In this document: in pieces, positions 28,002 to 58,439 of the stretch
Layout: every line of letters starts with the position of its first letter
How positions within the stretch are numbered: the stretch's first letter is position 1
Origin: Plumapathes pennacea
Taxonomy: Eukaryota; Cnidaria; Anthozoa; Antipatharia; Myriopathidae
DNA: 64,000 nucleotides
Reading direction: 5' to 3'
Assembly: GCA_964036295.1 (NCBI GenBank)
Contig: OZ038463.1
Location: 24,663,069-24,727,068 of the forward strand
Translations under genes and position numbers: made by a program
The notes under the pieces: generated by a model
Databases searched by the model: none
Told to the model about the DNA's origin: nothing
The model's input: the letters and a program-made list of their open reading frames with translations, nothing else

Positions 28002-28005
28002 TTAA
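28002..28005. other. Empty TTAA target site
   Basis: Copy 1 reads GTGAATTAACTCCCTC. Copy 2 has GTGAATTAA at 43871-43879 and TTAACTCCCTC from 50262, with 6382 bp between. This is the unoccupied site of the transposon at 43880-50261. Confidence 0.95.
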
Positions 28006-28039
28006 CTCCCTCAGGGGTTTCCTTGGGGATACGTATCTA

Positions 28040-30400
28040 GGTGTAAGTAAGTAAGTAAGTAAAGACTTTATTTAACGAGGGTATCACAAAATAGTACAAA
28101 GTACTAACAAACAAGTGGCCCTCAACCTATAATACAAAAAAAACCTATGCTAAGATTAAAATACAATGTAGGTATTGTAAAAGTAATAACTAACATACGA
28201 AAATAAAATTATGGATTAAAATGTGCTAAATCCTGTTGACTGTTTAAAATATTCGACTTAAGTGCGTTTCTAAAAGACCTAACACTTGGCAATTTACGGA
28301 TGTTTAAATCAATAGTGTTCCATAGCTGTGTAGTGATAACAGTGAAAGTCTTACCACCTTCAGTCTTTCTATTAAAATTTGGACATAAAAGATTAAAATT
28401 AGAATACTGGGTAGAGCGTTTGTGCACGTCACTGTTCAGCTTCAGTGTGTCCATTAAATATAAGCTAATACAGATTGTTTAATCTTAGCTTCTTCATAAG
28501 AGGGGATCCATTTGAGTTTATTAAAAAGTTCGACTGAGGGGGCTTGGGGGGAGCATCAAGAATGACTCTGGCTGCCCTCTTTTGGAGACGTAACACCTTG
28601 TTGAGGTTGTCCTTACTACTGCACAGAGACCAAATCACGGAGGCATAGTTCATGACAGGCCTAATCACAGCGTTGTATTATGCCATTCGTTGAGTAAAAG
28701 ATAGACATGCCTTCATCCTGTTGAGAACCCCGATCCGTTGAGACAGCTTATTACAAAGTCTGTCGATGTGTAAAGGAAAACCAAGCTCTCTGTGAATTTC
28801 AACACCAAGAAGTATAGCCAAATCAACTTGCTCGAGTACATTGCCGTTTGTCATCCGCAAATTAAGGTGTTTGTCCCCGATTGTGTCTTTTAAACGCTTC
28901 CCTGTAACGAGGAGTGTTTTAGTTTTGGCCGCATTTAAGGGCAATTTGTTCATGGTTGCCCAATCAACGTCTCGCAACAAGCTGCACAGCGAGGCCCTTA
29001 AGGTGTCATAGGAACTGATGTCAGCTGAGGTGATAAGAGTCGTATCGTCAGCATACAGGTCAGGAGACACGTCAGTGGAGCTCAGATGAAGTGGAAGATC
29101 ATTTATGTACAGTACAAACAGCAGCGGGCCAATTATACTACCTTGAGGTACTCCATAGGGAACAGACATGCAAGATGAATCCTTACCATCTAAATGGGCA
29201 AACTGTTGCCTTGAGAATATGTAGGATTTGAACCAAGTAAGAGAAGTGTCTGTCACCCCATAGGCTTAGAGCTTCGCTAGCAGCAGTTCATGGCCTATCA
29301 TATCAAAGGCCTTGGAGTAGTCAATCATCATACCGCTAACCCTATTCTTGTCCAAGTTGAATAATAGCTCATCAACAATCCGCACAAGAGCTGTCTCGGT
29401 ACTGTGGTGTTTATGGAAGCCAGATTGTCGGTGATACAACAAGTTGTTATCACAAAGATATTTATAAAGACTATCGTGAACATGCTGCTCAATGAGCTTC
29501 GACATCACTGGTAACAGATATCGGCCGATAGTTGTTTACGCCGGATTCTTATATAGCGGTGTTACCTTGGCAGTTTTCCACCGCTGCGGAAAAACAGAAG
29601 TCTGGAGCGAAATGTTGTTCAGTTTGGAAACAGATGGCACAATGAAAGGAGCAGCAACTTTTAACATCTTGGAACTATATTTGTCAGCACCGGTTGCCTT
29701 GTTTACACTCAAACTTGAAAGACTATCGACAACAAAGCCTTTGGATATTGGTGGAATTTTGAATGTAACATCAGGATCCTTTTTGGACAGAACAAAATGT
29801 TTGAGCCTAGTAATGTCAAACTCTACATTGGGCAGGAGTGACCTCAGTTTGTCTGCAATAGATGAAAAGTGAGCATTAAAGGCTTCTGCTGGCTCCTCAA
29901 CCAGGTGGTCGCTGTCTGTGCTGCTTGTTAGATCATTCACATTTAGCACCTTTTTACTGGATCCAGTCAAAGACTTGATAATCTTCCAGATCTTTCTCGG
30001 GTTGTTTTTGCTATCCTCGAAGCAGCCTTTGTAGAAAGCTCGTTTCGCACTCTTGATCAAGTTTACGGTTTTATTTCTTTCACGCTTATATTTTTTCCAA
30101 TCATCTGTGGTGTTAGAACGCCTTGCAGTTTTTAAGCAATTGTCCCTGGTCCTGAGCTGACAAATAATCGCCTTTTTCATCCACGGAGCTTGAGTTTTAC
30201 GTGCAACGCGTTTTTGGTGCCAAGGACAATGGGTGTTGAGGGCTTTGTTGAACAAGGTCTCCCAAAAACTAACAATGTCATCCAACTTATCAAATACAAA
30301 GGCTGTGTCCCAAGGAGTGCTAGCAAGAGTAGACTTGAACTGCTGCTCGTCTATTGGGTATATTCTATATTGGGTCTGTGTTCGTTTTCGTTTTTGTCCT
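28040..30400 (-). pseudogene. CR1/L2-like non-LTR retrotransposon in copy 1
   Basis: Minus strand: linker and RT N-terminus about 30400-29536 (YPIDEQQFKSTLASTPWDTA, SSLSVNKATGADKYSSKML, FPQRWKTAKVTPLYK), RT 29508-28678 (SGFHKHHSTETALVR, YGVPQGSIIGPLLFVLYIND, LYADDTTLITSADI), C-terminus 28668-28209 (AVIRPVMNYASVIWSLCSS, NFNRKTEGGKTF). The 3' end has AAATAAAG and a TTAC tetranucleotide run (28043-28063). Several frameshifts and a stop just before VTDTSLTWF, shared with copy 2, show it was dead before the duplication. Copy 2 counterpart is 50300-52260. Confidence 0.85.
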
Positions 30401-34199: not shown

Positions 34200-34872
34200 T
34201 GTACTCTAGCCTGTTGTTTTGTTCAGTCCTTTTGGCCGTATAGTGTTCAAAGTTTTTGTTAGAATATTTTGAGCATTCGAAGGATTTCTTTTTTTGTTCG
34301 ATTTCCATATCATTTTTCCTGATTTGTTCAATGATTGTGATGGTGACGTTATTGTGAAAATTATGAGTTTTTGTGTTGTGTAAGAGGTGTTCAGTGAGTT
34401 CACATCTACTGACTTTCTTTTTAATGTGGCTCCTATGGCTGTTTAGACGTAGGTAAATGCTGTTTCCCTCTTCCCAATATGCTGTAGTTTGCAGATGTTG
34501 TATTCAATGATGTAGATCAACCAGATCGATTGGCAGTCCAAAGAGTGAAAATGTTGAAGACTTTGTTGTTTGTGCTCGTAAATAGTGTTGTGGTGGTTAT
34601 TCGTTTGCACCAGCTACACTTGGCTTTGTTGCATGGTCTGCACCCCTTGTATGGCAGAATGTGGTCTTCCGTTGTACCTTTGTACCTCTCGTAGGGTTTT
34701 TGGGCATCTGTATGCGACCATTGGGGGTTTGTGGAATATGCAGGACAGCTTTTTCTTTGACTGGAGAAAGTTCCAACTCCTATTTGCGATTTCATCAATA
34801 TGTGGGGGTTGTATGTGGTTACCAGAGGTATGCGATCTGTGGTACTTTGTCTCATGTTCACAGACATTCTTC
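34200..34872 (-). pseudogene. Penelope-like element, C-terminal part with GIY-YIG-like region
   Basis: Minus strand just after the TAGG tract: [29 protein letters not shown] and TTTTLFTSTNNKVFNI. This C-x2-C / C-x2-C-rich stretch is typical of Penelope-like elements between RT and nuclease. Further on, in shifted frames, come LIYIIEYNICKLQHIGKR, RLNSHRSHIKKKVSRCELTE and TLNTIRPKGLNKTTG, consistent with a GIY-YIG endonuclease domain and its 'LN...GLN' tail. The RT itself is missing, with the microsatellite in its place. The copy is dead. Confidence 0.7.
34624..34872. repeat. Inverted repeat arm left of the TAGG tract
   Basis: About 245 bp whose reverse complement lies at 35607-35847. The arms include GTAGGGTTTTTGGGC, CCATTGGGGGTTTGTGGAAT and TGCATGGTCTGCACCCCTTG. 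Both are Penelope-like sequence in opposite orientation, with the microsatellite at the centre. Confidence 0.85.
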
Positions 34873-35606
34873 TAGGTAGGTAGGTAGGTAGGTAGGTAGG
34901 TAGGTAGGTAGGTAGGTAGGTAGGTAGGTAGGTAGGTAGGTAGGTAGGTAGGTAGGTAGGTAGGTAGGTAGGTAGGTAGGTAGGTAGGTAGGTAGGTAGG
35001 TAGGTAGGTAGGTAGGTAGGTAGGTAGGTAGGTAGGTAGGTAGGTAGGTAGGTAGGTAGGTAGGTAGGTAGGTAGGTAGGTAGGTAGGTAGGTAGGTAGG
35101 TAGGTAGGTAGGTAGGTAGGTAGGTAGGTAGGTAGGTAGGTAGGTAGGTAGGTAGGTAGGTAGGTAGGTAGGTAGGTAGGTAGGTAGGTAGGTAGGTAGG
35201 TAGGTAGGTAGGTAGGTAGGTAGGTAGGTAGGTAGGTAGGTAGGTAGGTAGGTAGGTAGGTAGGTAGGTAGGTAGGTAGGTAGGTAGGTAGGTAGGTAGG
35301 TAGGTAGGTAGGTAGGTAGGTAGGTAGGTAGGTAGGTAGGTAGGTAGGTAGGTAGGTAGGTAGGTAGGTAGGTAGGTAGGTAGGTAGGTAGGTAGGTAGG
35401 TAGGTAGGTAGGTAGGTAGGTAGGTAGGTAGGTAGGTAGGTAGGTAGGTAGGTAGGTAGGTAGGTAGGTAGGTAGGTAGGTAGGTAGGTAGGTAGGTAGG
35501 TAGGTAGGTAGGTAGGTAGGTAGGTAGGTAGGTAGGTAGGTAGGTAGGTAGGTAGGTAGGTAGGTAGGTAGGTAGGTAGGTAGGTAGGTAGGTAGGTAGG
35601 TAGGTA
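34873..35606. repeat. Uninterrupted TAGG microsatellite, 734 bp
   Basis: About 183 perfect copies of TAGG with no interruption visible. Read on the minus strand it translates as Tyr-Leu-Pro-Thr repeats in long open frames, which are not real proteins. A tract this long and pure is expected to be highly unstable. The G-rich strand could form two-layer G-quadruplexes. Confidence 0.98.
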
Positions 35607-35847
35607 AACGAGAGACGAAGTACCACTGATCACATACCTCTGGTCACAACATACAACCCCCACATGATATATATAGCTGAATTTGCAAATGGGAATTGGA
35701 ACTTTCTCCAGTCAAAGGAAAAGCTGTCCTTCATATTCCACAAACCCCCAATGGTCACATAGAGTCGCCCAAAAACCCTACGAGAGGTGGAAGACCACAT
35801 TCTGACCACATTCTGTCATACAAGGGGTGCAGACCATGCAACAAAGC
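35607..35847. repeat. Inverted repeat arm right of the TAGG tract
   Basis: Reverse-complement partner of 34624-34872, carrying Penelope-like coding sequence on the plus strand ([19 protein letters not shown]) in broken frames. It ends next to a CA-rich run at about 35848-35885. Confidence 0.85.
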
Positions 35848-37783: not shown

Positions 37784-38025
37784 ACTAACATACATACATA
37801 TTTACATACTTACAGATTTACTACATACCTACATAGTTACTATACAATTTTTATATTTAAGTTTGTTCTTTAAAGTACAGCTAACGTTATTACAATGTTT
37901 CTAACAAGCTTCTAAGAAGCGGTGACAGACATTGACGCTCAACTCAGAGGATAAATTCCTCTTGAGAGAGGTACGTAGTATTACAAACTAAATCTAGTGT
38001 GCAGGTAGAAAAGCTGTGGAACAGT

Positions 38026-38406
38026 CTAAAAGTCGCAATTTGAAAGCGTGGTCCATTTATTTTTGTAAGTTTTGTAGGCATTATTTCTGACGGCGATTTC
38101 TTTTTCTGATTGAATCTTGTTTTGAAGTAGTGCAAGGAAAACGTTTATGTTCAATAGTTCAGACTTGATTCGTGCAAGGTGTATGTAATATTTCCCTATC
38201 AGGAGGAAGTGGTTAAACGCGTAATAGTGTGGGTATTCTAGCTTATAGCCGTAAAGTATTTCATTTCGGTTTGGGTTCATCTTCTCCGATCGCTTTTTGT
38301 TCCACCATTGGATAACTAGTTTCCATAACGCACTGACTTTGCAGCAGTCGTAGAAAATATGTGAAATTGTTTCATTCGGGCTCTCACAGCGCTCACAATT
38401 GTGTGA
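38026..38406 (-). pseudogene. L1/Tx1-like RT C-terminal fragment, copy 2
   Basis: Duplicate of 22145-22520 with a few substitutions (for example SELLNINVF for CELLNINVF). Same zinc-finger and helical tail motifs and the same stops. Confidence 0.75.
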
Positions 38407-38437
38407 GCGTCTGCCCTGCGTGTCTGCGCTGTGTGTA

Positions 38438-38700
38438 TACTAGAAATGAAAAATACACCAAAATAGTCCTGAGCATTGAGTTTGCAGTCACAAATAGACC
38501 AAACACGCTGTGAAGAAAACCGCAATAATATTGTAAACAAGTCTTGTGTTGGGCTTGTGTTACATTCCTCGCTTTCAATTTTACATTTGGTACAAAGCAC
38601 AAATACTCGAAAGCCTTATAGAAGTGAAACGCATTCAGTTAAAAAACAAGACAGACTAGTATTGAAGTGAAGGCTGACTAATTGTGGCCTCTGATTAGAA
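38438..38700. repeat. R repeat, diverged copy in duplication copy 2
   Basis: Duplicate of 22557-22822, with an extra AATATT-type difference near 38525. Confidence 0.7.
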
Positions 38701-38875
38701 TTAAGTGTTCGAAGCCAAACTGTCAAAATTGATTCATAAAAAGACAAGTCACGCATTACTCAGATTTACTTGGTGGGTAACCATTTTGCTTCTAAGCTCA
38801 AAATGCAGAGTCGCTCAACCTTTAAGAACCAAGTGTATGAGTGTTGTAATGATAAATTTATAGTTTAATCAGGTT

Positions 38876-39385
38876 TCATTTAAGCAAGGTGTCAAAAGCC
38901 AAGTTCTCTATACTGTGTGATATATTTCTGGTGAGAAACTGGAAGTCTCCCGGAAGTTCCGCTCTTGTCCTTGCTTTCCATTTTAGTTTACTCTGCTCTC
39001 GACCCAACTGACGCCGCGAGCTCACTGGCAACGCCAGTCTAGTTTCCTTAATATTACACCAGATAATGAGTTCCGTCCAGAACTTTTTTATGTGATAGAA
39101 AGACACGAACAGATGTGTAAGGGATTCGTCCTCCACATTACAAAAAGAAGACAAAGGAAGGAAAGAATTCGTGGGCAAGTATCTATTCAAGATTTTGTAT
39201 TGAAACAACTATGATTCGAACCGTGTGAGAAAATCATCTTACCTTTCCATTGAGTCCTCCATAAATCTTCTACTTCTGTTGTGCTATGTGTTTCTTGCAG
39301 AAATATGATGTCGACCTTTTGTTTGATTAACCATATGAAGAGAGCTTTTCTTTTTTCTGGAAAACTTTAAAGTCTACATTATCTT
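38876..39385 (-). pseudogene. Internally deleted L1-like ORF2, copy 2
   Basis: Duplicate of 22994-23500. Here the C-terminal part is open over 110 aa (FQYKILNRYLPTNSFLPL, LTHLFVSFYHIKKFW) because a 2-bp difference near 39090 keeps the frame that copy 1 loses. The missing RT domain is the same in both copies. Confidence 0.7.
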
Positions 39386-39805
39386 TTGAATTGAATTGTC
39401 CTTAAATATTATTTCACTCATCAGTATTTCTCTCCTGGAAGTATGCATTCTAAACCCCAACACAGTACACAATACAGCACAAAATACAGCTAATTCACTT
39501 TTACGCACAGTCAATGGGGACAACAAAGTAACTAAGCACAATATACTTAACGAAGAAACAATAACTTCCTTTAAAAGCCGCAAAGAAATCATCTTGATTG
39601 CGACCCTTGGAATGTGGGGCTAATTTTGTTTTTGTACTCTTTGTTTTGCTTCCGAACCTCCGACTCCCAAAAGTTTAGTCAAAGGCGTGCACAGCTATTT
39701 TTACAAATATACGTCTACTTAATGTCTACTGCTTCACTCTCAATTTTAGTATGAACAGGTTGTAAGGATACACACACGGACTCCTCAGGCTATGATATTT
39801 TGCAG

Positions 39806-40452
39806 CTACAATGGGACATACACTCCATCAATGAATAGTTTGTCAGGTTTGGGTCCACTGAAGGCGGCACACTTTCCCTCTTGTCTAGCTTGATTTACTT
39901 TGGGCCACTGTTGTTTCCGCCTTTCCCTGATCTCTTTGGGTAGGTCGATGAGCACTTTCACTTCTTGGTGTTCCCTTGGTGCTCGCACCTTCTTGAATAC
40001 CAACTCTCATTCCTTAAATCGTAAGAACCTGGCGATATTTGGTCTTGTTACCCTCCTCTTCTTCTTTCCGACCCGATGAATCTGTTGGAATTCAATGTAG
40101 CGCGGCTCTTCTATCCCTAGCTCCTCTAGGAATTCATACACCACTTGAGTATCTTCAGCCTATACCAATGAAGCGAAGATTTTCTCTTCGATTGTAAACT
40201 TCTTGATATATAATACAATCATTTAGTGTTTTGATGTCTTCCATGTGCTTCAGTTGTTGCACCTCCATATTTAGAAAGCTTAAACTGCCTTCTCGATCAC
40301 CGATTTCTCGATTTCCGTGGTTTTCTTTTCGAGGTTTGTCACCTCTGAACTTTCCACACAGCCTTTTCAAGTTTTGGCACCGATGTCACTACATCTTGGA
40401 GTTTGCACTCTACTTTTTCTAGTTTCTTTATGATTAAGGTTAGTTGGCTCCC
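39806..40452 (-). pseudogene. L1-like ORF1, C-terminal part, copy 2
   Basis: Duplicate of 23922-24577, with a 9-bp deletion near 40245 (VQQLKHMEDIK instead of VQQLKEENHMEDIK). Interrupted at 40453 by the THAP transposon, as in copy 1. Confidence 0.75.
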
Positions 40453-40556
40453 AATTCACCTTTTCCCAAATGAGTAGGTGACTGGATTCGAGTTCCGACC
40501 ACAAAGGCGCTTGGGACTGTTTGGATGGACAGATCCGCCATCTTGTGTTAGCGAGT

Positions 40557-42033
40557 ATGCCGCATCATTATAACTGTTGTGTTCCTGGCTGTACAAACAG
40601 CTTCAGAAATGCACCCGATCTCCAGTTCTACCGAATTCCAAAGGATAAACAACTGAGGAAGACCTATAAAATCATTTTGAGGAATGAAACGCTCAAATTG
40701 GATTTCGAGTGCATGCGAGTTTGTTCGGCTCATTTTGAAGGTGGAAAGAAATTGAGTCATAACCATTTACCAACGCTTTTTCCCTAAGTAAAGAAAAGAC
40801 GCAAAGAAGAGAGCTGATGAGGCTGCAATCCAGTGAAACAATTCAAAGGGTGAAGAAACGGAAGTGTTTAAGTCCTGAGGTTCATGTAGAAATCCCGGAG
40901 CAGGCCAAAGACTCACCTGGCTCTGATGGTAGCAACGCATCCATGGTGACAGACAGCCACATCGCTGCTCAAGAAAAATGCACTCACACTGCACCTACTA
41001 TGGTTGAACTTCCAGAAAGGGAGAAGTATGAAAAGGAAAAGCAGGTGCTGGCTGGGAAGTCTAGAGATTTGGAGATGGAATTGCTGGCTTTGAAAGAAAA
41101 AACTGAATTGCTCAAGATTGAAAATGAGAATTTAAAGAAAGAGGTTCGTCGATTGAACTTTGCACTTGACAATCCAAGATTTGACATTGGTAAATACAGT
41201 GACAGTGATGAAGATATTGCATTTTATACTGGGTTTCCTGAGTACAATGCTATGCTTTTGTGCTATAAACTTGTTGAGGAATCAGCAAAGAACATGAGCT
41301 ATGACCACAAGAGAGTTTATGTTGATAAGCAGCACAAGCAGCCTGGCAGGCCAAGAGTCTTGAGTTCTTTCCAAGAGTTTACCTTGTCATGATGAGGTTG
41401 AGACTTGGACTGTTTGAGAGAGACCTAGCAAACCGCTTCAATGTATCACTAACAACAGTGTCCAGAGTAACAAGAACATGGGTTAGATTTCTCAGGTGTG
41501 AGTTTGAACCCCTGATCAACATCCCTCCAAGTGATGTCATCAAACTTTACACACCAGGAGTCTTCAAGAAATAATGCCCTAGCCTTACTGTTATCGTCGA
41601 CTGTACTGAGATTGAGATGGAAAAGCCTTCATCTCTGGATGCACAATCGGTGTGTTATTCATCGTACAAGTCGAAGACCACCATGAAGGCCCTCTTGGGT
41701 ATCACTCCCAGTGGAGTATTGTGCTTTGTGAGTGATTTTTTTCCGGAAAGCACTTCAGATAAAGAAATCACTGTTCAGAGTGGTTTTTTGACAAAGCTCA
41801 ACCAGGGTGACCAATTGATGGCTGACAAAGGATTCAATTGTCAAGATGAACTAGCTTCTTTTGGGGCTACACTTGTAATTCCAGCATTCCTCAAAGGCTC
41901 TAAACAGTTTTCTAAAGAGCAGACTGAACATAACAAGAAAATGGCAAGTTTGAGAATTCATGTTGAGAGATTGATGGGAAGGATCAAGAACTGGCAAAGT
42001 TTTGATCACAAAGTTCCTATTTATCACCAATAG
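40557..42033 (+). pseudogene. THAP-domain DDE transposase, copy 2 (broken)
   Basis: Same domain order as 24682-26157 and the same TAA after GVFKK (near 41572). Private changes: LRNETLKL instead of LNETLKL in the THAP finger, a one-base deletion near 41386 (EFTLS stop instead of EFTLVMMR), and MPGVFKK to TPGVFKK. Both copies are dead. Copy 2 has one more frameshift. Confidence 0.85.
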
Positions 42034-42384
42034 CATCAGATATATTAATTGTTGTAAGTGCATTGTCCAATTTCCATCCACCTTTGATCAATTAGTGTAC
42101 TGAAATGTTTTTGACTTTGAAATGTTTTAACTGATATAGGAAGGATGTTATAATAGTACAGTTGTGTGTTAAACATTGCAAACTCATACAGTTTGTTGGT
42201 TGAATAATGACTGCACTTTTATTAAATGGATGAGAGCCAGAACAACTTATCATAATGTTGTATTTTATTTTGTCACCATGGGTCATAACATAATCATGCT
42301 CAAGTCAATGTAAAGTGAATAACTAACAAAGTAGGCCAGAAAGTCATGAAGGACAAATATACTGGGAACATTGATACCGCAGTT

Positions 42385-43345
42385 CTAAACTGGGCAAATA
42401 TCCCATTTCGGGAGTCCATACCTTATGCGGGGATATGCAACTTCAGGTGCAGTCCACCTGTCATGGAACAATTCGAGCTTAGGGAAAGTTGCTTTCCAAA
42501 ACACTGCTGAGAATTGTACCCTTTGGCAAAATAGTTCACTGTTCTGTGTTCCCTGCACAACAAAATCAGTCCATTTCATTTCAGTCACATACATGTGTTG
42601 TTGTACTTGATAATAATACTTGTGCTTGGGATTTAGTTCCAATGCATCCGTTTTTACACAAATTCTCTTTCTCAGCAAGGATTCACTCAAACTCTCATTC
42701 TCTTTTACTTGAATAAACTTCACTTCTATGAGTTCTCTTGACTCCACTGAAGAGGGGTCTGAAACAAGACCACCTGGTGAAGCACCTAGAAATCCATGGT
42801 CCTTGCTGATAAAGAACCCACATCTAGTAACAGTGACACCAGTGTGCCCTTTCTGTTCCATCACCTCTGTGTACCTCTTGATAATTTTGTCTTCCATTTC
42901 AAGACCTGCTTTCATGCTTTCTGACTGGTATGGTGTATTCAGCCTCAATACATCTCTGATTGCTTTAGTTGGAGATGTTGTTTCCCGTAATGTTGCAACA
43001 CGATGGCACTTTGATGCTGTGATCCTGTACTTCCGTAATGCATACCAAGATGCATTGTTGGACTGGTCCCTTGTAGACTTCTCAGCTTCAGAAATTTCTC
43101 TTTTGCTAACTGGAGTTTCCTCTTGACCTCGCATCTTTGCCTTAACACAGAGGGGCTTATTGGCTGTTCTTTCAGAGGAGAAAGTAACTCATCATTGACT
43201 GCATCATGATCACACACGTCACCTCCACTGACAGGATCCTCTTTGGGATCTTCAGGATTTTGTGGCAAAATATTTTGGCTCCTGGGATATCATCCTCGGT
43301 AAGGAAGACCTTTTCTTTTGGTGAATCGCTAGTTGAAGACGCCAT
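42385..43345 (-). pseudogene. YqaJ-type nuclease, copy 2
   Basis: Near-identical duplicate of 26509-27469. It carries the same SPGG variant and the same frame changes. One visible difference is DDIPGAKIF instead of DDISGAKIF. Confidence 0.8.
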
Positions 43346-43435
43346 TTTCAAGATTCTGTCAATCAACACAGTCCCAAGCGCCTTTGCGGTCGGAACTCGA
43401 ACCCAGTTGCCTTCTCGTTTAGATAAAGGCGAATT

Positions 43436-43615
43436 AATCTTTAAAGCTGTTAGCACTTCGTCTTTTTCGCTTACCAATATGGCCTCCTGTTGCTCGGTTG
43501 CCTCATTGCGTGATTTGCAAATTCGTTTCTCGCTAGGGGATTTATTGTCGCTCTTGGAGCCGCTACTGATGCTACTTCTTGTCTGTCTTTTTTGTCCGTG
43601 AAGAAAATCCGCCAT
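43436..43615 (-). pseudogene. L1-like ORF1, N-terminal part, copy 2
   Basis: Duplicate of 27560-27739 (MADFLHGQKRQTRSSISSGS to VLTALKI), ending at the THAP transposon edge. Confidence 0.7.
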
Positions 43616-43875
43616 GTACTGCTTTAGCCTGGAAAATAGGATTTTCTTTCGGGAGCCGAGATGCACGCATCTTCATTCTTCCATGACTAGCAATGACAAG
43701 TTTATTAGTCTTTAGAGTACAGAGAGAAGTATGTCTAGACACTATGACTAGAGGTGTTGGCATTGTAGGTAGGGTTGGGTTGAAGAAAGCCATAGTGTTG
43801 TCATTGGAGATGCTTTCTTTTAGCTTTTCAAAGGCATTTTTTCTGGTCCCCATTGAAGCTTGGCAGCTTTGTGAA

Positions 43876-43879
43876 TTAA
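43876..43879. other. Left TTAA target-site duplication
   Basis: TTAA next to the left end GTAATGGTTCAGAT. The right TTAA is at 50262-50265. Copy 1 has a single TTAA at 28002-28005. Confidence 0.95.
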
Positions 43880-44364
43880 GTAATGGTTCAGATAAGAACT
43901 ATAGTGCAACCAGCGGGGCCCCGGCAGCCGGAGCCGTTTGCGATGAAGGTGTAAATTCGATTAAAGGAGCATCTCCGATTGGAGTAAGGTCGATTAAGCG
44001 CCAAATTCAAATTGTTTTCTCCGATATTTTCGTGAAATTTGCGTTGAAGTGAAAAATAAGCAGACAATATCGTTGATTTAGTAATGTGTTTTACTTCTGT
44101 GCAGTTTCAGGCGATTTGCATGTGGGGAACTTTCCGTTGGAGAGACATTTTGCGCGAGCTTGAAAGCTGATGCGGTGTCTGTTTCATTTCACTTGACGCA
44201 AATGACATTTGCCTACCGCAAGTGTAACGCTATTGGTTCGGCTCGGTCAACTCATGGCGCCAAACAATCGTCTTTGTCGGGTGATTGCTACACGTGCCGG
44301 AGAAGAAGCTCAATTCAGAAAATAATATCGCTCTTTGCTCTCGTTGCACTGTGTCAAATGTAAA

Positions 44365-44941
44365 ATGGCTGAAAGGTGGGTTGTCGTTGTATTGATCCTT
44401 CGAGTGGGAACTCAGTCAGCGGTCCGATGTCTTATTTATTTGCTATATTCATCAGGAAACGAACATCAGAGTCAAATATGGAAGACCCAAAAAGATGAAG
44501 ATCGAAACCAGAGTAAGTATTGATACCACGCGAAATTTGCTCGTTCGCGCCTGGTCTTTCTAAATTATGCTTCCTTGATTTGCAGAAGAGCCATTTGTAC
44601 CAACTGTATGGCAAAAATTCGCCATCCGCAGGAAGCTAAGTGTTGCTTCGCGCTTCATGGCTGGAAAAGATTTCCAAACGATTTCGTGCGAAATGGGAAT
44701 CGCGAAGGCCACCATTGAAATTTACGCGATCGATTGTCTGGCAGCAGGGCAGCCACTAGATTACGATGTCATAGCCTCCAACCTGAACGTCACGACTACA
44801 ACTTTTCAGCGAGTGCGGAGGAGTATAGAGGAGAACGGCGACAGGAAACTGCGCACAATACACGACTCCCTACAGGCAGAAGTCTCTTATAATCAAATTC
44901 GGTTCGTTTTGGCCTGCATTATCAACGATATTGAACTGTAG
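44365..44941 (+). CDS. Small HTH protein of the TTAA transposon
   Basis: Two exons: 44365-44512 and 44586-44941. The intron of 73 bp has donor GTAAGT and acceptor TTTGCAG. Total 504 nt, 167 aa, no frameshift. After a hydrophobic N-terminus (WVVVVLILRVG) comes KEPFVPTVWQKFAIRRKL and a helical domain: FMAGKDFQTISCEMGIAKAT, LDYDVIASNLNVTTTTFQRV, SYNQIRFVLACIINDIEL. This resembles the HTH_40-type domain found after the RQC region of RecQ-like helicases ('SY..IR.VLA' ending). No helicase is present. Possible role: binding of transposon ends. Start at MAERW chosen for being inside the element, with two earlier ATGs nearby; exon 1 is less certain than exon 2. Confidence 0.6.
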
Positions 44942-44970
44942 AACAGGGGCGCGATTCATTGTATGGCTAC

Positions 44971-45045
44971 TTTTCATGTGATCAAATTCGTTTCGTGTTG
45001 GCCTGTCTGATAAATGAAATAGAAGTGGGATTGAGACACGTTTGA
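44971..45045 (+). other. Duplicated C-terminal codons after the HTH gene
   Basis: Just past the stop at 44941, the plus strand again encodes DQIRFVLACLINEIEVG, a near copy of NQIRFVLACIINDIEL. It is either a small tandem duplication of the gene's end or an alternative last exon. Confidence 0.5.
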
Positions 45046-45137
45046 ATAAGTTTATTTATGTACAGTGATGATGATAAAATAAATGCCAACGTTTGATCTA
45101 GTTGTGGTTTGATCTTGTTAGTGCTAAGAATCTTTTA

Positions 45138-48100
45138 TCATAAATAGGACACAGAAATAACAGAGGCTGAGCTAATTTCTGTGGCCGAAGTGGATAAATA
45201 CATCCTTGAAAACCACAATGCCGGGTAATTAGCATGTCCAGGTGGTGCATATGAAATGACAGCACCGCTATCCTTGTGTTGGTGCGAATCAACAAACATG
45301 CAGGAACCATCTGTATTTACAATAAATAACATTGAACGGCCAGAAGTTACAATTACATGGCATTTATGTCCGCTAGTACATGCAAGATTTAGAGCTGTTG
45401 ACATCTGCTGTGTACATTGTGTACCAAAAATATCATACTGATGCTCTATCTTATTGACACAGCAGTCTCCACCAGCTACTTCAACAGCTTCCTGAACAGA
45501 AACATTCACCGCACCACCCTCGAACACATCATCATGAATTTCATTCCCTTTAAGAATTGAATTCTTGAGGGCTAACCGCCAATTGTCCAACAAAAAGGCA
45601 TTCACTGGAGGCTGAAGACAAAAATAATTGTAATAATTACCAAAACACAAGGCAATGAAAGTACAAGCATTACTCCCTGATCTACCAAAAATTGTGGACT
45701 GGCTAAAATCAACAGGAAATTGCCACTCAATGACAACAGGTGTGTGCAAGCTGTTACATCCTAAATGTCCAACATGATCTTCTGACTGGCGAGTCATGCT
45801 ACTGCTGAACTGCAACCCGGTTGGTGGTGTGCTGGTGACTGGCCTGGTTGGTGGTGGTGTGCTGGTGACTGGCCTGATTGGTGGTGGTGTGCTGGTGACT
45901 GGCCTGGTTGGTGGTGGTGTGCTGGTGACTGGCCTGATTGGTGGTGGTGTGCTGGTGACTGGCCTGATTGGTGGTGGTGTGCTGGTGACTGGCCTGGTTG
46001 GTGGTGGTGTGGTGGAGACTGGCCTGGTTGGTGGTGGTGGTGCGGTGGTGACTGGCTCTGATAGACCTCCTGGTGCATTGCTATCTCTGGAGTTTAGTGT
46101 GGAGACTTCTTCAGCCAGGATGTTCAATGCTGCTTTCCTCTTCTGATGGTAAGTACTCCACCAGCTGCGAATTTGATTCTCCTTCAGTGGATCAATACCG
46201 CGCTGTCTCATCACCTCAATGGCATCCTTGGCATTGGCTCGGATACCACCATTAGCTTGGCGGTCATAAAACTCTATCATGACTTCTTTCTGGGCAATGG
46301 TGAAGGTCACACGTTTTGCTCCACCCTTTTTTACAGCAAACTCCTTCCCTGGCTGTCGCTCTTTATGTGGATAATCAGGCACTGTCACCAGGTTAGGGGT
46401 TTCCAGAGCTTCTGGTGAATGTTGCACAAAGTGTATGCTGTACACTTCACCTGATCCTTGAAATTGACCAACAGTTCTGGCCTCAGGCACAGATCCATCA
46501 TTGACAGTTGCCCCTGTGGAACCAGCTATGGGATTTATTCTTCCTGACAATGCCTGGAGCTGTGACTTAGTCTTTTTTAAGACCTTTCCGGTGCCTGCTA
46601 GAGATGTCGCCACAAGTCCACCAGCTTGCTCTCCTTCCACTGGAAATGAGAAGCTTCCAAACAGGGAGATGTCTTTCAGGGTACCAATCTTCTTTGGTGC
46701 TCTCTCCCTGTCAATCAGCAGCTCCAAGCAGGTGGTATTCTTGATACTCTACAAGACACACAAAACCTTTCTTAAAGATTGTCATCTTCAATGAGATACT
46801 GAGAACTGTCAGGTTTCTGAATATGTACTTATCCTGTTCTGCAGGAATATACATGTCAAAGTACCGGTTCTCAAGACTGCATAATTCAATGGTTTTGATT
46901 TTCTAAAATGTAGACTTACCCGTATGAGATCAGACAGTTGTCCACCAGACACCAAATCATTTCCAACCCGTACCCAACGAACAATCTTGTGGCTAATGTG
47001 GGCGAAATGTGTATCCAGCACTGTTTTGCCTTCTCCAGCTTCAAAGTTGTTGTACTGTAGGAGAGTCAGATTGAAGGCACTGTTGACTTCTGCCAAATAC
47101 AACAGAAACCCAGTGTTGTGATAGTGGGGTCCATTGTCTGACAAGTAAACAGAACAAAAAAGAGCCAGTTTAGATGTATACTCAAAGTAATCCAACAAAG
47201 AGCAATTTAAGAAAGCTTGGAGGTGATGTCCTTGACATCTACTAAAGTCCTTCTCTAATTTAGACACCATCTGCCTTGTATTTTCACAAAAAGGGCCAGA
47301 TGTTTATGTGCTTGCACCAGAACAGGGCCCAGTTGTTCAAAGCACGATTAGGCTAATCCTGAATTAGGTATAAATGTTTTTGACATCTGTAAGCATGAAA
47401 ATGGGAGGTTTCTCTCACAACACAACTTCTTTGATGTGTTTTAAGATAGGACAAGCTTGCCCAGGTCAATAGCAATAAAAATTGCATAAAGTACATGGTT
47501 ACATGAATTTCCACATCATAGTAATATTTAGATACTTTCACTCACCAGATAATAAATAAACTTGGAAGCCTGGGAAAGCATTCTCCAACCAGCTCAATCC
47601 AATGTCAAGGGCACTTTGAGTAAACCAGGTGTCTTGCTTGGTGTCTTCACTCCACAGGTCGATCACCTCTGCTGAGCGATCATCTTCACTGACTTGGGCA
47701 ATGACGTAGAACCCATGAAGTGAAATTCCTCTTTTCCCATACCAGTCTCTCTGGATTTCTCTTGTCCTTTTCCCAAGCTCCAGCTTCATCTTGTAGTCAA
47801 TTATAACAACACATTCCCCAGGCTTTAGGTTCTTTAGGACATAGTAGTAGTAATCTGATTGATGTTTGGTGCGAATGAGATGCCCAGTGTAGTCCAGATG
47901 CCTGTTCACTGACTCATTCAGCTTTTCCTTCAGCTTCACTTTCATTGGTAGACCACATGATGAAGTTTCCAAAGCCTCTTCAAGACTTTCACAGCTACTA
48001 TAGAACAGCGAAATATATTCCACTGTGTCTGGATGCTCCTCTGAGCATGTTCCCAATGCATGGCTCATGCACAGTTCAAGACAAGGGGAGTGCCGCTGAA

Positions 48101-49853
48101 GTAACTTTGAAAATTTCCTCTTCAGGAATGTCTGATGCTCCCGCAGGTTCTTTCTCACTGCTGCATGATCAAGGTTGTGCCCTGGCAGATTAGATATTTC
48201 CTGTGCAAGGGTACACATGGCATCAAAATTGGAGTGGCCAAAGTCATCACACAGGTTACAAAGACCAGCCAGCATAGTGTTCATGCGGAAGTTCTTTGGG
48301 AGGTGAGTGTACACATAGGTTCTCTTGACACCATTTGGGCATTGAAGGAGATACTGCTGGACAATGCCCTTGATGGAATCCTGCCAGTACCGTACAGCAG
48401 TTTCCTCCTTGTCAACCATCACACTGCGGCATGAACAAGCTCTGGTGATGTCATCTCGATGAAGGAACTCAGTTAGCTCTTCGATGATGTCAGGGCTCAA
48501 TCTCTGTCTCTTGAACTTTAGATGAGGGGGAGGGACACCACCACGTCCAAACAAGATGCAATGGACTCTTGCAGCAGTTACAGTATTCGGAGAGCAGCCA
48601 AATACCTTTTGAAGGCAGGCGTATGAGTAATCAGGAGCAACAATTGACAGTAGCCGCCGCTTTTCATCCCCATAATGGCGTAACCTCCCCACCATCTTGG
48701 CTGCCTCCACACGTGATGTGGCATCACCTGGTGTTTCTCCAGCCAATGAAATTCGGCTTTTGGCCTTTGTATTGCCAATCAAAAGCTTCTGCTTTTGATG
48801 CTTTGCATTTTCCCTAACTTTCTGGACAGTTTCCTTTTCCTTACAAGTCTTGTACTCTTTTGCCAACACATAAACAAAGTTCTTCTCACATACACGTGGT
48901 TTAACAGTACATGTAGTTCCAAAAATTTGTCTCCAGCCTTTGCTCTGAATGGTATCACCAATGAGTTCCGTTAAATGTTCACTTTCATTATGAACAAATT
49001 TGAGGGCAGTGACCTTTGTTGTTTCAGTAACCGCTAACCTCATATCTCTCTTGGTCCTCTCTTGGGCATCCTTATAGGGCAACAAAGGAAGGCATGGCAT
49101 TTGTGTGCCTCTCGTCATAAAGCGAGGGAGATATCCATTCCAGCTATCTTGACTCTCAACTGTATCAACACTATCAGCAGCCTAGGGGGAAAAAAGTTGT
49201 TTCCAGTCAGCAAAAAGAACTTCCATTCCAAGAAATACATTTATTTTCTTTACACATGAAAACTTTAGTCTTCTGATGGTTGAGAAAACCTGTTTCATCA
49301 ATAACTCAGTAGGTTTCAGATGCAATGATAGCTTTCAGATCGACACTCTACACCTAAGCAGAACATACACAAACATCTTGACGTCAAATACTGCTTCAAT
49401 TTGAAGCAAAGAGCACAGGTACAGGCGTATTTTTGCGAGCGTTATACAAAACAACTGTATCACACTTTGCAGTTTACTTACGTGTGCAGGCAGATGCTCT
49501 TGAAATGTTTCTTGATCAAGCTCTAAAGCTGCACATTCAATGCCTGTGCCATCCTAAAGAGAAGAAAAACACTCCCGTTTATATACCAGTTTTTGAACGC
49601 AAACACGAAAAAGGTGAGAAAACATGTGGCGTGGTCTGTCGCTACTCACCTCTGTTTCTTCGAGTCTACGGCACTTTTCCTCCACATGAATTCGGTTTCG
49701 GCACGCAAAGCAAATTTTGCGCTTCCTTTTCCCGTGTTTCTTGTCGCTGAAACAATACCTTTCCTCCTGGAAGGTGGTGGCCCTGAGTTTGGTGTGGTCC
49801 ACATGGTGCCATTCCTGATGCTTCACGCATCGGCACGTACCAGCGAACGGCAT
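45138..49853 (-). CDS. Transposase-homeobox-like-protease protein of the TTAA transposon
   Basis: Five exons on the minus strand: 49853-49650, 49553-49482, 49181-47546, 47137-46920, 46748-45138. All introns are GT..AG and phases agree, giving 3741 nt, 1246 aa and no stop. N-terminus: Cys/His-rich (GTCRCVKHQEWHH, CFACRN). Middle: Cys-rich block, then a DDE-like triad D554 (VVIIDYKMKLE), D638 (LLSDNGPHYHN) and E670 or E673 (NNFEAGEGKTVLD), a spacing of 84 and about 32-35. Aa about 856-916: homeobox-like helices (FTIAQKEVMIEFYDRQ, ENQIRSWWSTYHQKRK). Aa about 948-1020: repeats of TPPPTRPVTS. C-terminus: cysteine-protease-like domain with Cys1072 (GSNACTFIAL) and Asp1197/His1199 (FVDSHQHKDSGAVI). 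Intact and probably the newest gene in the window. Confidence 0.75.
45811..46055. repeat. 30-bp coding minisatellite
   Basis: About eight units of GGCCTGGTTGGTGGTGGTGT plus GCTGGTGACT, encoding (T/S)TPPP(T/I)RPVT on the minus strand. All units keep frame, with Thr/Ile alternation. It separates the homeobox-like and protease-like parts, so probably a flexible linker. Confidence 0.9.
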
Positions 49854-50261
49854 TTATCACAAAAAACAGCTACATGAATAACTACATGAATATTGATTCA
49901 AGCACTTGATCAACCGACTACGAACGTAAATTAACCTTCAATTTTTCAACAACACGAGCTGTAATATCCACTAAACGATCTCACTTCGACAGGTTCAATA
50001 TGGCCGCCGTTTTCGTTTGTTCGGGTTCAGTCGGTTCCCCACATACGAATCTTACGAAAGAGGCAGGAACAATAGCATGACGTATAAGTCGACAAAAGAC
50101 ACAAAGGAATCGGACTTTATCGGGTTTATTCGTGCAAAAATCGTAAAAAATGTGATTCCAGCCAATCACAAAGGCGGAAAATAATTGATAAATCTAATTA
50201 AACCGCGCGCTACTGAGCATGCGTTGCCGCTGCATACTATCCTTGTAATCTGAACCATTAC
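49854..50261. promoter_or_regulatory. 5' flank of the transposase gene and right transposon end
   Basis: No gene between the transposase ATG (49853) and the right inverted repeat (ends 50261). By position this must hold the transposase promoter and end-binding sites. No TATA box is obvious. Confidence 0.4.
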
Positions 50262-50299
50262 TTAACTCCCTCAGGGGTTTCCTTGGGGATACGTATCTA

Positions 50300-52260
50300 G
50301 GTGTAAGTAAGTAAGTAAAGACTTTATTTAATGAGGGTATCACAAAATAGTACAAAGTACTAACAAACAAGTAGCCCTCAACCTATAATACAATATAAAA
50401 ACCTATGCTAAGATTAAAATACAATGTAGGTATTGTAAAAGCAATAACAACTAACATACGAAAATAAAATTATGGATTAAAATGTGCTAAATCCTGTTGA
50501 CTGTTTAAATATTCGACTTAAGTGCGTTTCTAAAAGACCTAACACTTGGCAATTTACGGATGTTTAAATCAATAGTGTTCCATAGCTGTGTAGTGGTAAC
50601 AGTGAAAGTCTTACCACCTTCAGTCTTTCTATTAAAATTTGGACATAAAAGATTAAAATTAGAATACTGGGTAGAGCGTTTGTGCACGTCACTGTTCAGC
50701 TTCAGTGTGTCCATTAAATATTTCGGAACTGAATTTTTAGTCCTTTTATAAGCTAATACAGATTGTTTAATCTTAGCTTCTTCATAAGAGGGGATCCATT
50801 TGAGTTTATTAAAAAGTTCGACTGAGGGGGCTTGGGGGGAGCATCAAGAATGACTCTGGCTGCCCTCCTTTTGGAGACGTAACACCTCGTTAAGGTTGTC
50901 CTTACTACTGCACAGAGACCAAATCACGGAGGCATAGTTCATGACAGGCCTAATCACAGCGTTGTTGTATGCCATTCGTCGAGTAAAAGATGGACATGCC
51001 TTCATCCTGTTGAGAACCCCGATCCGTTGAGACAGCTTATTACAAAGTCTGTCGATGTGGAAAGCAAAACCAAGCTCTCTGTCAATTTCAACACCAAGAA
51101 GTATAGCCAAATCAACTTGCTCGAGTACATTGCCGTTTGTCGTCCGCAAATTAAGGTGTTTGACCCCGATTTTGTCTTTTAAACGCTTCCCTGTAACGAG
51201 GAGTGTTTTAGTTTTGGCCGCATTTAAGGGCAATTTGTTCATGGTTGCCCAATCATCAATGTCTCGCAATGAGCTGCACAGCGAGGCCCTTAAGGTGTCA
51301 AAGGAACTGATGTCAGCTGAGGTGATAAGAGTCATATCGTCAGCATACAGGTCAGGAGACACGTCAGTGGAGCTCAGATGAAGTGGAAGATCATTTATGT
51401 AGAGTACAAACAGCAGTGGGCCAATTATACTACCTTGAGGTACTCCATAGGGAACAGACATGCAAGATGAAGCCTTACCATCTAAATGGGCAAACTGTTG
51501 CCTTGAGAATATGTAGGATTTGAACCAAGTAAGAGAAGTGTCTGTCACCCCATAGGCTTAGAGCTTCGCTAGCAGCAGTTCATGGCCTATCATATCAAAG
51601 GCCTTGGAGTAGTCAATCATTATACTGCTAACCCTATTCTTGTCCAAGTTGAATAATAGCTCATCAACAATCCGCACAAGAGCTGTCTCGGTACTGTGGT
51701 GTTTATGGAAGCCAGATTGTCGGTGATACAACAAGTTGTTATCACAAAGAGCTCAATGAGCTTCGACATCACTGGTAACAGATATTGGCTGATAGTTGTT
51801 TACGCTGGATTCTTATATAGCGGTGTTACCTTGGCAGTTTTCCACCGCTGCGGAAAAACAGAAGTCTGGAGCGAAATGTTGTTCAGTTTGGAAACAGATG
51901 GCGTAATGAAAGGAGCAGTAACTTTTAACATCTTGGAACTGTATTTGTCAGCACCGGTTGCCTTGTTTACACTCAAACTTGAAAGACTATCGACAACAAA
52001 GCCTTTGGATATTGGTGGAATTTTGAATGTAACATCAGGATCCTTTTTGGACAGAACAAAATATTTGAGCCTAGTAATGTCAAACTCTACATTGGGCAGG
52101 AGTGACCTCAGTTTGTCTGCAATTGATGAAAAGTGAGCATTAAAGGCTTCTGCTGGCTCCTCAACCAGGTGGTCGCTGTCTGTGCTGCTTGTTAGATCAT
52201 TCACATTTAGCACCTTTTTACTGGATCCAGTCAAAGACTTGATAATCTTCCAGATCTTTC
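50300..52260 (-). pseudogene. CR1/L2-like non-LTR retrotransposon in copy 2 (5' end cut)
   Basis: Duplicate of 28040-29996. RT is open over 234 aa at 51548-50844 (YGVPQGSIIGPLLFVLYIND, LYADDMTLITSADI). Copy 2 keeps about 30 bp near 50722-50752 that copy 1 lost, but lacks about 31 bp near 51751. Homology ends at 52260, so the ORF's upstream part is missing here. Confidence 0.85.
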
Positions 52261-52263
52261 CAG

Positions 52264-53838
52264 GCCAGCGACGTTGAAATCACCAGTGGAGACGTACTGC
52301 TTGTTTACACAGTTCACCGTGAACAATAAACAGTGAAGTGTGTGCATTGTATGACTCATAGCTTGCTAACTGACCATTACAATGGCGATTTCCGAGTCTT
52401 GGGATCTATGATTCCACTGAGATTGGTCAGATATAACAAATTCTCAAGAGCTACAATATATTATTATCAACATAGTGATGAAAATTACTAGTTCAGGATC
52501 TCATGGCTCAAATCTTTGCCTCAAAGTTCTATAATTAAAATGCTTAAACGATGTGGTTTTTATTGTGAAGTACGATGGATAATTTAGTAGTGACTGCAAA
52601 GATTCTCAAGGCTTGAAAAGCTACAGTAGTTTAGTTTTTTTGTATTTTCATCAGAGGATCTATTTCAGGGGGAAAAAATGAAACTATATTAACAGGCCGA
52701 ATTCCTGGACATACATCTTGTCACCCTAATCCTATGCTCGGTTTTAACGAACACAGTAATGTACAGGTCTGAGGGCTAAATGTTTTTCCTTCTGAAAGAG
52801 TGTCGAAAAATCGCACATTTTGGTCTCGGGGCTGTTATCTCACCTCAATGTGGCACCAATGTGGCGTTTAAATGATCAATTATGATCTCCATAAGAAAAT
52901 CCTTGAAAGAAAACCAAGAAGGCTTAGGATTTTCCTCTGTTGTGATACAAGCGCTTTTCTTGCACTTCAGTGCCAAGAATAAGCACTAGTAACAAACTGC
53001 AGGAAACAGCCTAAATGACAATCAGATTAGACTACTCAAAACAGACTTCAAAATAGACTATAGGACACTCCAGCACATAAAATATTTCTTACATTCTTTC
53101 TTCTGGACTTGACTCTGGAAAATACTGCAAGTAAAGGAAAGATAAGTTTGTTACTTTCTCAAAGGACATCGGATTGGGTGTACTCACTTGTGCGAGGATT
53201 TCCAACAATTCTTCTATTGCACCCTGGAGGACAGCCAGGGGCGGCAATAACTCCTCTCCTGTCCCTTCAGACTAGAATTAAAACAAAGTGTAAGTATAGA
53301 TACACGAGAATTCAAGCAAGACAACAGACCGGCAACTTATCGGCATAGCGATTTCCTGGTGTCTCTGAGGACCAGCTGTCAAATGAGATTAAAAACCACT
53401 CCTTCAAATCTTCGGCCAGTAATCTTGTCAGTAATCTTGTCAGACGAAGAACAGCACACCACTGGGCAATATTTTTGTGCTACTATCTATTTCTTCATTT
53501 TTTACATGACTTTACATTTTTGAGTGCAAATACGGGTCAAAACGAGTGCAAAGATGGGAGCGTATTGCACTCGTTAGGAACCAATGCGTCATTTTTTGTT
53601 CCGTTTTGCGCGCGGCGAGAACATTTGTTCAGCTTCGTTCGTCGTATAATAAACAAACACGAAAAGTTGTGCAATACGGCTGTATTTTTACTCGTCATTT
53701 GTAAAAATACTCGTAAAAATACTCGTAAAAATACTCCGCCGGATTGCTCTCCTTCCCTTTTAATAATCTCTTTCTATTTTATTTCATCTTATATGCTTGC
53801 CGCATTGTTTTGCACATAACAGGTCAAGTATCGAAATG
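52264..53838. repeat. 1.58-kb direct duplication, copy 1
   Basis: Nearly identical to 55299-56882. It begins GCCAGCGACGTTGAAATCAC and ends GTCAAGTATCGAAATG. The left edge is 3 bp from the end of the large duplication, and the right edge coincides with the start of a 97-bp palindrome. Confidence 0.9.
53100..53380 (-). pseudogene. Possible 5' exons of an unrecognised gene, copy 1 (donor lost)
   Basis: Same exon-like blocks as 56125-56395, but the first exon's splice donor reads CCGATAAGT instead of CCGGTAAGT. The GT is destroyed, so this copy probably cannot be spliced as the other could. Confidence 0.3.
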
Positions 53839-55298: not shown

Positions 55299-56882
55299 GC
55301 CAGCGACGTTGAAATCACCAGTGGAGACGTACTGCTTGTTTACACAGTTCACCGTGAACAATAAACAGTGAAGTGTGTGCATTGTATGACTCATAGCTTG
55401 CTAACCGACCATTACAATGGCGATTTCCGAGTCTTGGCATCTATGACTCCACTGAGATTGGTCAGATATAACAAATTCTCAAGAGCTACAATATATTATT
55501 ATCAACATAGTGATGAGAATTACTAGTTCAGGATCTCATGGCTCAAATCTTTGCCTCAAAGTTCTATAATTAAAATGCTTAAACGATGTGGTTTTTATTG
55601 TGAAGTACGATGGATAATTTAGTAGTGACTGCAAAGATTCTCAAGGCTTGAAAAGCTACAGTAGTTTAGTTTTTTTGTATTTTCATCAGAGGATCTATTT
55701 CAGGGGGAAAAAATGAAACTATATTAACAGGCGGAATTCCTGGACATACATCTTGTCACCCTAATCCTATGCTCGGTTTTAACGAACACAGTAATGTACA
55801 GGTCTGAGGGCTAAATGTTTTTCCTTCTGAAAGAGTGTCGAAAAATCGCACATTTTGGTCTCGGGGCTGTTAACTCACCTCAATGTGGCACCAATGTGGC
55901 GTTTAAATAATCAATTATGATCTCCATAAGAAAATCCTTGAAAGAAAACCAAGAAGGCTTAGGATCTTCCTCTGTTGTGATACAAGCGCTTTTCTTGCAC
56001 TTCAGTGCCAAGAATAAGCACTAGTAACAAACTGCAGGAAACAGTCTAAATGACAATCAGATTAGACTACTCAAAACAGACTTCAAAACAGACTATAGGA
56101 CACTCCAGCACATAAAATATTTCTTACATTCTTTCTTCTGGACTTGACTCTGGAAAATACTGCAAGTAAAGGAAAGATAAGTTTGTTACTTTCTCAAAGG
56201 ACATCGGACATGTGGTAATCATTTTGGGTGTACTCACTTGCGCGAGGATTTCCAACAATTCTTCTATTGCACCCTGGAGGACAGCCAGGGGCGGCAATAA
56301 CTCCTCTCCTGTCCCTTCAGACTAGAATTAAAACAAAGTGTAAGTATAGATACACGAGAATTCAAGCAAGACAACAGACCGGCAACTTACCGGCATAGCG
56401 ATTTCCTGGTGTCTCTGAGGACCAGCTGTCAAATGAGATTAAAAACCACTCCTTCAAATCTCCGGCCAGTAATCTTGTCAGTAATCTTGTCAGACGAAGA
56501 ACAGCACACCACTGGGCAATATTTTTGTGCTACTATATTCTAATTCTTCATTTTTTACATGACTTTACATTTTTGAGTGCAAATACGGGTCAAAACGAGT
56601 GCAAAGATGGGAGCGTATTGCACTCGTTAGAAACCAACGCGTCATTTTTTGTTCCGTTTTGCGCGTGGCGAGAACGTTTGTCCAGCTTCGTTCGTCGTAT
56701 AATAAACAAACACGAAAAGTTGTGCAATACGGCTGTATTTTTACTCGTCATTTGTAAAAATACTCGTAAAAATACTCCGCCGTATTGCTCTCCTTCCCTT
56801 TTAATAATCTCTTTCTATTTTATTTCTTCATCTTATATGCTTGCCGCATTGTTTTGCACATAACAGGTCAAGTATCGAAATG
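55299..56882. repeat. 1.58-kb direct duplication, copy 2
   Basis: Partner of 52264-53838. Small differences include an extra CATGTGGTAATCATT block near 56210 and one fewer TCGTAAAAATAC unit near 56760. Confidence 0.9.
56125..56395 (-). other. Possible 5' exons of an unrecognised gene, copy 2
   Basis: Minus strand: an ATG followed by one codon (MP) then donor GTAAGT at 56390; exon 56321-56238 (acceptor TTCTAG, donor GTGAGT) encoding SEGTGEELLPPLAVLQGAIE and ELLEILAQ in phase; a mini-exon near 56148-56127 (SQVQKKE). Splice edges are good but the peptide matches no family I know. It could be the start of a transposon gene whose rest is not in the window. Confidence 0.35.
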
Positions 56883-58328: not shown

Positions 58329-58439
58329 GCCTACGGCCACACCACCGCGGATAACACCGGTTCACTGAAGTTAAGCCCGGTCGGGCGGGGTTAGTACTTG
58401 GATGGGTGACTGCCTGGGAACACTCAGTGCTGTGGGCTT
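58329..58439 (+). rRNA. 5S rRNA-like sequence, shortened
   Basis: Begins GCCTACGGCCACACCACC and ends GTGCTGTGGGCTT, followed by a T-rich tract (TTTTCTTCTTC). The internal control region is well kept: GAAGTTAAGCCCGGTCGGGC (box A side) and GGTTAGTACTTGGATGGGTG (box C). Length is about 111 nt against about 119-120 for animal 5S. The missing bases lie after CACCGGTTC, where about ten nucleotides (TCGTCCGATC-like) are absent. Single copy here and not in a tandem array, so a dispersed pseudogene or a 5S-derived SINE head is more likely than a working gene. Confidence 0.75.

Follow-up and report, generated by a model that had tools for sequence, protein, structure and literature searches.

An intact-looking TTAA transposon of Plumapathes pennacea with an empty duplicate site and a protease-like transposase tail

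We report here that a 6382-bp segment (43880-50261) of a 64,000-nt stretch of Plumapathes pennacea DNA (contig OZ038463.1, positions 24,663,069 to 24,727,068 of the forward strand; the window means this whole stretch) looks like an intact, autonomous cut-and-paste DNA transposon of TTAA target sites. We place the probability of this reading at about 0.78. The features observed directly are the element ends, the adjoining TTAA, an empty site in a neighbouring duplicate, open spliced frames, conservation in relic copies, and near-identical complete copies of distant relatives. What makes the element a variant is the fusion of its transposase to a cysteine-protease-like domain. A first-pass annotation of this DNA, made from the letters alone, lacked this domain, the HTH_40 domain of a second gene, the many distant relatives and a possible precise excision at the empty site.

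Results

Ends, target site and empty site

The terminal inverted repeats (GTAATGGTTCAGAT) are identical at 14 of 14 bases, with weaker similarity further inward, and TTAA directly adjoins the element on both sides. The termini are GT..AC, and the ends read GTAATG. The features that define the insertion are as follows.

43876-43879, no strand: left TTAA target site copy (sequence and duplicate comparison)
43880-43893, plus: left terminal inverted repeat, GTAATGGTTCAGAT (same end in locus L013; one mismatch in L011 and L012)
50248-50261, minus: right terminal inverted repeat (same end in L009 and L014)
50262-50265, no strand: right TTAA target site copy (sequence and duplicate comparison)
28002-28005, no strand: single TTAA at the unoccupied site of the other duplicate (duplicate comparison)

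A local duplicate lacks the element, and there both flanks are joined at one TTAA. Specifically, the block 22041-28005 corresponds to 37922-43879 with 98.9% identity, and the block 28002-28461 corresponds to 50262-50721 with 97.0% identity. The first-pass annotation had described the 14-bp inverted ends, the TTAA on both sides and an exact empty site, and all three were recovered here. Among the 337 TTAA of the window, taken as pairs within 12 kb and compared with words of 8 to 12 and 14 bases, the element's pair alone has inverted flanking words. Since no other pair has inverted words even at 8 bases, chance is not a reasonable explanation for the ends.

Two convergent spliced genes

The element carries two convergent genes with five introns in all. 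The minus-strand gene has five exons that splice into 1246 codons with no internal stop, and its four introns (96, 300, 408 and 171 bp) are all GT..AG. The plus-strand gene has two exons and one intron, and encodes 167 aa. Thus, the earlier description of two convergent spliced genes free of stops holds, with five introns (four in the minus gene and one in the plus gene) in place of the six exon junctions given there. The gene features are listed below.

49650-49853, minus: transposase exon 1, with the ATG at 49853 and, by eye, many Cys and His residues (splicing reconstruction)
49482-49553, minus: transposase exon 2 (splicing reconstruction)
47546-49181, minus: transposase exon 3, with a Cys-rich region and the putative first catalytic Asp, D554, codon 47796-47798 (parts matched by relics L010 and L018)
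46920-47137, minus: transposase exon 4, carrying D638 (intron 3 interrupts its codon), E670 and D679 (limits matched by L009, L010 and L018)
45138-46748, minus: transposase exon 5 with the stop, comprising a homeodomain-like stretch, proline-rich repeats and the protease-like domain (splicing reconstruction and relic match)
about 46119-46316, minus: homeodomain-like stretch in exon 5 (by eye)
45822-46056, minus: 30-bp tandem repeat of 7.7 copies, encoding a Pro-rich linker (tandem-repeat analysis)
45141-45746, minus: cysteine-protease-like domain, aa 1045-1246, with Q1060, C1072 and D1197-x-H1199 (alignment; part matched by relic L009)
44365-44512, plus: plus-gene exon 1, ATG at 44365, donor GTAAGTAT (relic match over aa 16-54, 48.7% in L011 and 46.2% in L012)
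44586-44941, plus: plus-gene exon 2 with the stop and the HTH_40 domain, PF14493 (first ~70 bases alone matched by L011 and L012)

The borders of exons 3/4 and 4/5 are supported because the protein similarity to the relics L009, L010 and L018 ends near them. Substitution rates at nonsynonymous (dN) and synonymous (dS) sites were estimated by NG86, omitting relic stop codons. For exon 4, dN was 0.085 vs dS 1.148 (L010) and 0.108 vs 1.166 (L009), and for 131 codons of exon 5, dN was 0.188 vs dS 1.2 (L009); as dS values of about 1.2 lie close to saturation, only the low dN/dS ratio is to be taken from these comparisons.

The HTH_40 domain of the plus gene scored 48.7 bits against a Pfam gathering threshold of 27 (E 9e-13). 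A genome search with the plus-gene product found no second copy. HTH_40 is typical of RecQ/WRN C-termini.

Transposase core and distant relatives

A Pfam scan of the transposase found neither THAP, as the first-pass annotation had also noted, nor any other domain, the best hit being DUF5898 with E 0.52. From its motifs, the minus-strand protein would be a DDD/E transposase of the RNase-H fold. The genome that we searched comprises 290 Mb in 24 contigs. A protein search with exons 3-4, in which 71 of 281 candidates were scored so that the count is a lower bound, gave at least 75 matches, many of them 24-33% identical and in long open frames. Judged by these matches, the genome holds a broad superfamily of which the transposase is a member.

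Nine transposase rows were aligned (alignment A1), at 22-30% identity to the window protein. The group has the signature D-x(81-85)-D-x40-D. The first and second Asp (D1 and D2) are invariant in all nine rows at a spacing of 81-85 residues, and the third (D3) lies exactly 40 residues past D2 in each of the eight rows that reach it. Nine residues before D3, six of these eight rows have Glu and two have Asp. The third catalytic acid may therefore be D679 or E670, and we favour D679 because Asp is invariant at that position (8/8 rows).

Two distant families, 23% identical to the window transposase, are each represented in our sample by a pair of complete copies that share 99.2% identity over the whole element. 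The F1032 family (L051 and L052) is ~6.6 kb long with inverted repeats near 0.58 kb and GT..AC termini, and the F1003 family (L053 and L054) is ~7.2 kb long with inverted repeats near 0.95 kb and GA..TC termini. TTAA is present at all eight ends of these four copies, and the flanks differ between copies. L051 has an open frame of 1032 codons and L054 one of 1003; the L053 copy is interrupted. In a third family, F802 (L049 and L050), TTAA adjoins the right end in both copies and the left similarity boundary in neither, and we do not claim it as a complete element. The superfamily seems recently active in this genome, because distant relatives are present as complete elements that are almost identical to each other, and some of these have open frames.

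No relatives emerged from viral contigs queried with exon 3, alignment A1, two relatives and alignment A2, or from prokaryote contigs queried with A1 and A2; both searches may omit records near the genome of the window.

Other copies of the same family

A genome search with the whole element, in which 40 of 525 candidates were scored (the counts are thus lower bounds), returned at least 48 matches, namely 33 of a short repeat in intron 3, the element itself, and 14 pieces at 71-84% identity. Searches with the 5′ and 3′ element ends returned five and three matches, counting the element itself. An end adjoins TTAA in five of the six loci fetched (L009 to L014): the end is exact in L009 (3′), L013 (5′) and L014 (3′), and has one mismatch in L011 (5′) and L012 (5′). 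The flanks of L011 and L012 match each other, which points to one insertion duplicated later; therefore, the five ends represent four independent insertions. In this comparison, no element end turned up in L010, and none on the 5′ side in L009. Three additional end matches with three mismatches (L010, L011 and L012) lie away from TTAA and look like chance. Hence, the window element belongs to a genuine family that is rare; among the genome matches examined, no other copy is full-length with open frames. The first-pass annotation had looked towards other copies with TTAA duplications and near-identical ends; the four insertions are such copies, and different ends did not occur.

The intron-3 repeat (47322-47458) has at least 33 other matches in the genome. 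It was probably nested later, since relics L009 and L010 contain no match to it.

The C-terminal protease-like domain

A genome search with the protease-like domain gave 12 matches, itself counted. The window domain was aligned with four of the genome matches (L055 to L058). S-Q...G-R-x-G-S-x-A-C and D-x-H-x-H are invariant in all five domains; the Q-to-C distance is 12 positions (Q-x11-C) throughout, and the C-to-D distance is 125-134. The layout Q-x11-C...D-x-H of the window domain is the catalytic order of the viral-tegument-like deubiquitinases (VTDs), which are known from Helitrons and herpesviruses and in which Asp-x-His is described as invariable (PMC9741609). The catalytic residues of DrT1-VTD2 (C322/D451/H453) and Wc-VTD1 (C319/D440/H442) give corresponding C-to-D distances of 129 and 121 (PMC9741609).

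The domain lies beside this transposase in the window and in relic L009. It probably does so at C7 too, where the protease match at 5218884 is 2-3 kb from transposase matches (5.2158-5.2167 Mb). None of the 12 matches falls in the fetched F802, F1032 and F1003 elements (L049 to L054). The long frames of these three families end otherwise than the window protein, and further exons are possible.

Domains of the same protease-like signature are spread over the genome: when the L058 domain served as query, 40 matches were obtained, itself counted, some of them in open frames of ~200-400 aa.

Discussion

Proposed mechanism

The N-terminal Cys/His-rich part and the homeodomain-like stretch of the transposase probably bind the element ends. 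With D554, D638 and D679 (or E670) as catalytic acids, the protein would cleave the DNA at the 14-bp ends and insert the element at TTAA, a copy of which would then flank it on either side. For the C-terminal domain, the likeliest reading is a cysteine protease of papain fold whose active site is Cys...Asp-x-His. It would strip ubiquitin, or a ubiquitin-like protein, from the transposase or from proteins of the host, and so shield the transposition complex or affect host repair. The small HTH_40 protein of the plus strand probably binds DNA and serves as an accessory factor. We infer the catalysis, the protease activity with its substrate, and the role of the plus gene.

Points that weigh against the proposal

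Several results weigh against this picture of a mobile element with a transposase and a deubiquitinase-like tail. The copy number of the family is very low and the genome searches found no near-identical copy; therefore, recent mobility of the window family rests on one empty site. When the window ends were compared with the ends of F1032 and F1003, 81, 1474, 1159 and 1908 of 2000 shuffles reached the score in the four comparisons, so that one is marginal (81/2000) and three are non-significant. The transposase core had no Pfam family or Protein Data Bank (PDB) match in sequence searches, and a single-sequence structure prediction of exon 3 was poor, with a pLDDT (predicted local distance difference test) of 32. 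Besides the near saturation of dS, one of the four dN/dS comparisons, exon 3 against L010, gave no usable dS. For the protease-like domain, neither the Pfam scans nor the searches of PDB chains (one by profile, three with single members), all with filters that lose weak matches, found a VTD, a solved structure or a Pfam family, and its single-sequence model was also poor (mean pLDDT 39). Furthermore, D-x-H is also found in UFSP2 and ATG4 (PMC9741609). As sequence similarity to VTDs was not reached and the model is poor, the VTD assignment rests on motif and spacing.

Which TTAA group?

The element behaves like a TTAA cut-and-paste transposon, whose superfamily may be Sola3 or a separate group. 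Sola3 makes TTAA target site duplications. The window element has this mark, which is common to other groups too. To our knowledge, a protease tail and an HTH_40 gene are not part of the description of Sola3. That the element is an ordinary Sola3 member, its tail and plus gene being additions at the level of the family, has an even chance in our estimate; this would concern its name and is compatible with an intact-looking TTAA transposon. In support, the marks tested place the element outside both piggyBac and Kolobok, and it shares with Sola3 a TTAA target and a DDE transposase outside these two groups. In Repbase, Sola3 forms a subgroup of Sola (PMC4455052), and the literature passages on Sola3 that were consulted give no definition by sequence or ends. 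The bolder proposal is an undescribed DDD superfamily of TTAA elements (D-x(81-85)-D-x40-D), distinct from piggyBac, Kolobok and Sola, in which a single family captured a herpesvirus-tegument-like deubiquitinase tail; we consider it improbable at present.

piggyBac elements resemble the window element in their TTAA target, short inverted ends and expected cut-and-paste movement. However, their termini are CC[C/T]T (PMC2872659), whereas the window element ends in GTAATG without CC[C/T]T and has no match to the Pfam piggyBac transposase domain; the earlier statement that it is not piggyBac-like agrees with this. A Helitron was thought unlikely given the inverted ends and the DDD/E-like protein, and a domesticated gene since the ends and TTAA are intact.

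Precedents for the tail

Among the matches listed by a literature search on transposase-protease fusions, the relevant ones were Ginger, the VTD paper and Teratorn. Ginger1, whose DDE transposase bears an OTU or Ulp1 cysteine protease at its C-terminus, comes nearest in layout (PMC2836005). In contrast to the Gypsy-integrase-like core of Ginger1, the window core has no Pfam match, and its protease-like part is of the Asp-x-His type. The VTD deubiquitinases of herpesvirus tegument, Helitrons/Helentrons and Drosophila ms(3)76Ca share the Cys...Asp-x-His order and spacing and likewise form part of transposon proteins, those of Cnidaria among them (PMC9741609). Helitron VTDs are fused to RepHel, whereas the window domain, a putative VTD homologue, is fused to a TTAA DDD/E transposase. 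Teratorn, a piggyBac-like transposon fused with a herpesvirus, is a TTAA transposon with herpesvirus-type parts too; it is 180 kb long and largely virus, whereas the window element is 6.4 kb with one protease-like domain.

Whether the tail is a deubiquitinase is, on the evidence of motif and spacing, about a coin toss. A UFSP2/ATG4-type protease of ubiquitin-like proteins, or an inactive relic, is a rather less probable alternative, consistent with the D-x-H that these enzymes share and with the absence of any match to VTD PDB chains or Pfam families in our searches. Invariance of the catalytic positions in all five aligned domains argues against a relic. Besides, VTD domains fused to transposon-associated domains are stated for corals and sea anemones (PMC9741609), which also speaks against this alternative; the passages of that paper that were consulted name no transposase type.

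Insertion or excision

Two histories could account for the empty site: the element never inserted there, or it left by precise excision. One TTAA at 28002-28005 fits both, and footprint-free excision is usual for piggyBac, which also targets TTAA (PMC2872659). However, insertion after the duplication needs one event fewer, and there is no element trace at 28002; excision is thus the unlikely course of the two. A Kolobok lineage that lost the usual marks is very improbable: although the TTAA target, the second gene of some Kolobok lineages, the RecQ helicase of KolobokH together with the RecQ/WRN association of HTH_40, and the F1003 termini (GA..TC), which fit the 5′-RR..YY-3′ rule, speak for it, the window family and F1032 end in GT..AC, C/DxxH is found between D2 and the last acid in none of eight rows, and the short D2-D3 spacing of 40 residues leaves little room for the zinc finger of most Kolobok lineages (Kolobok marks from PMC9587614).

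Meaning

As a TTAA cut-and-paste transposon, the element would enlarge the set of DNA transposon groups with this target. Ubiquitin- or SUMO-removing enzymes recur in Ginger1, Helitrons and herpesviruses, for reasons not yet settled (PMC2836005, PMC9741609). If the bolder proposal of a separate superfamily with a captured deubiquitinase is true, cut-and-paste transposons, herpesviruses and Helitrons would each have acquired one enzyme class independently. With its mapped ends, its defined empty site and its transposase-protease fusion, this complete element offers a small system to probe the need for a protease in transposition.

Other features of the window

Further local duplications lie at 52264-53838 / 55299-56882 and 13563-13994 / 14400-14830, with 96.7% and 97.7% identity, respectively. 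A perfect (TAGG)n array at 34873-35606 (183.5 copies, 100% match) is flanked by an 85% inverted pair, 34623-34853 / 35612-35847, and the region from ~29 to 37 kb has a strong positive G skew. A tRNA-Glu (ttc) is predicted by ARAGORN at 12735-12810, and a 5S rRNA match lies on the plus strand at 58329-58438 (74.4 bits vs a gathering threshold of 38).

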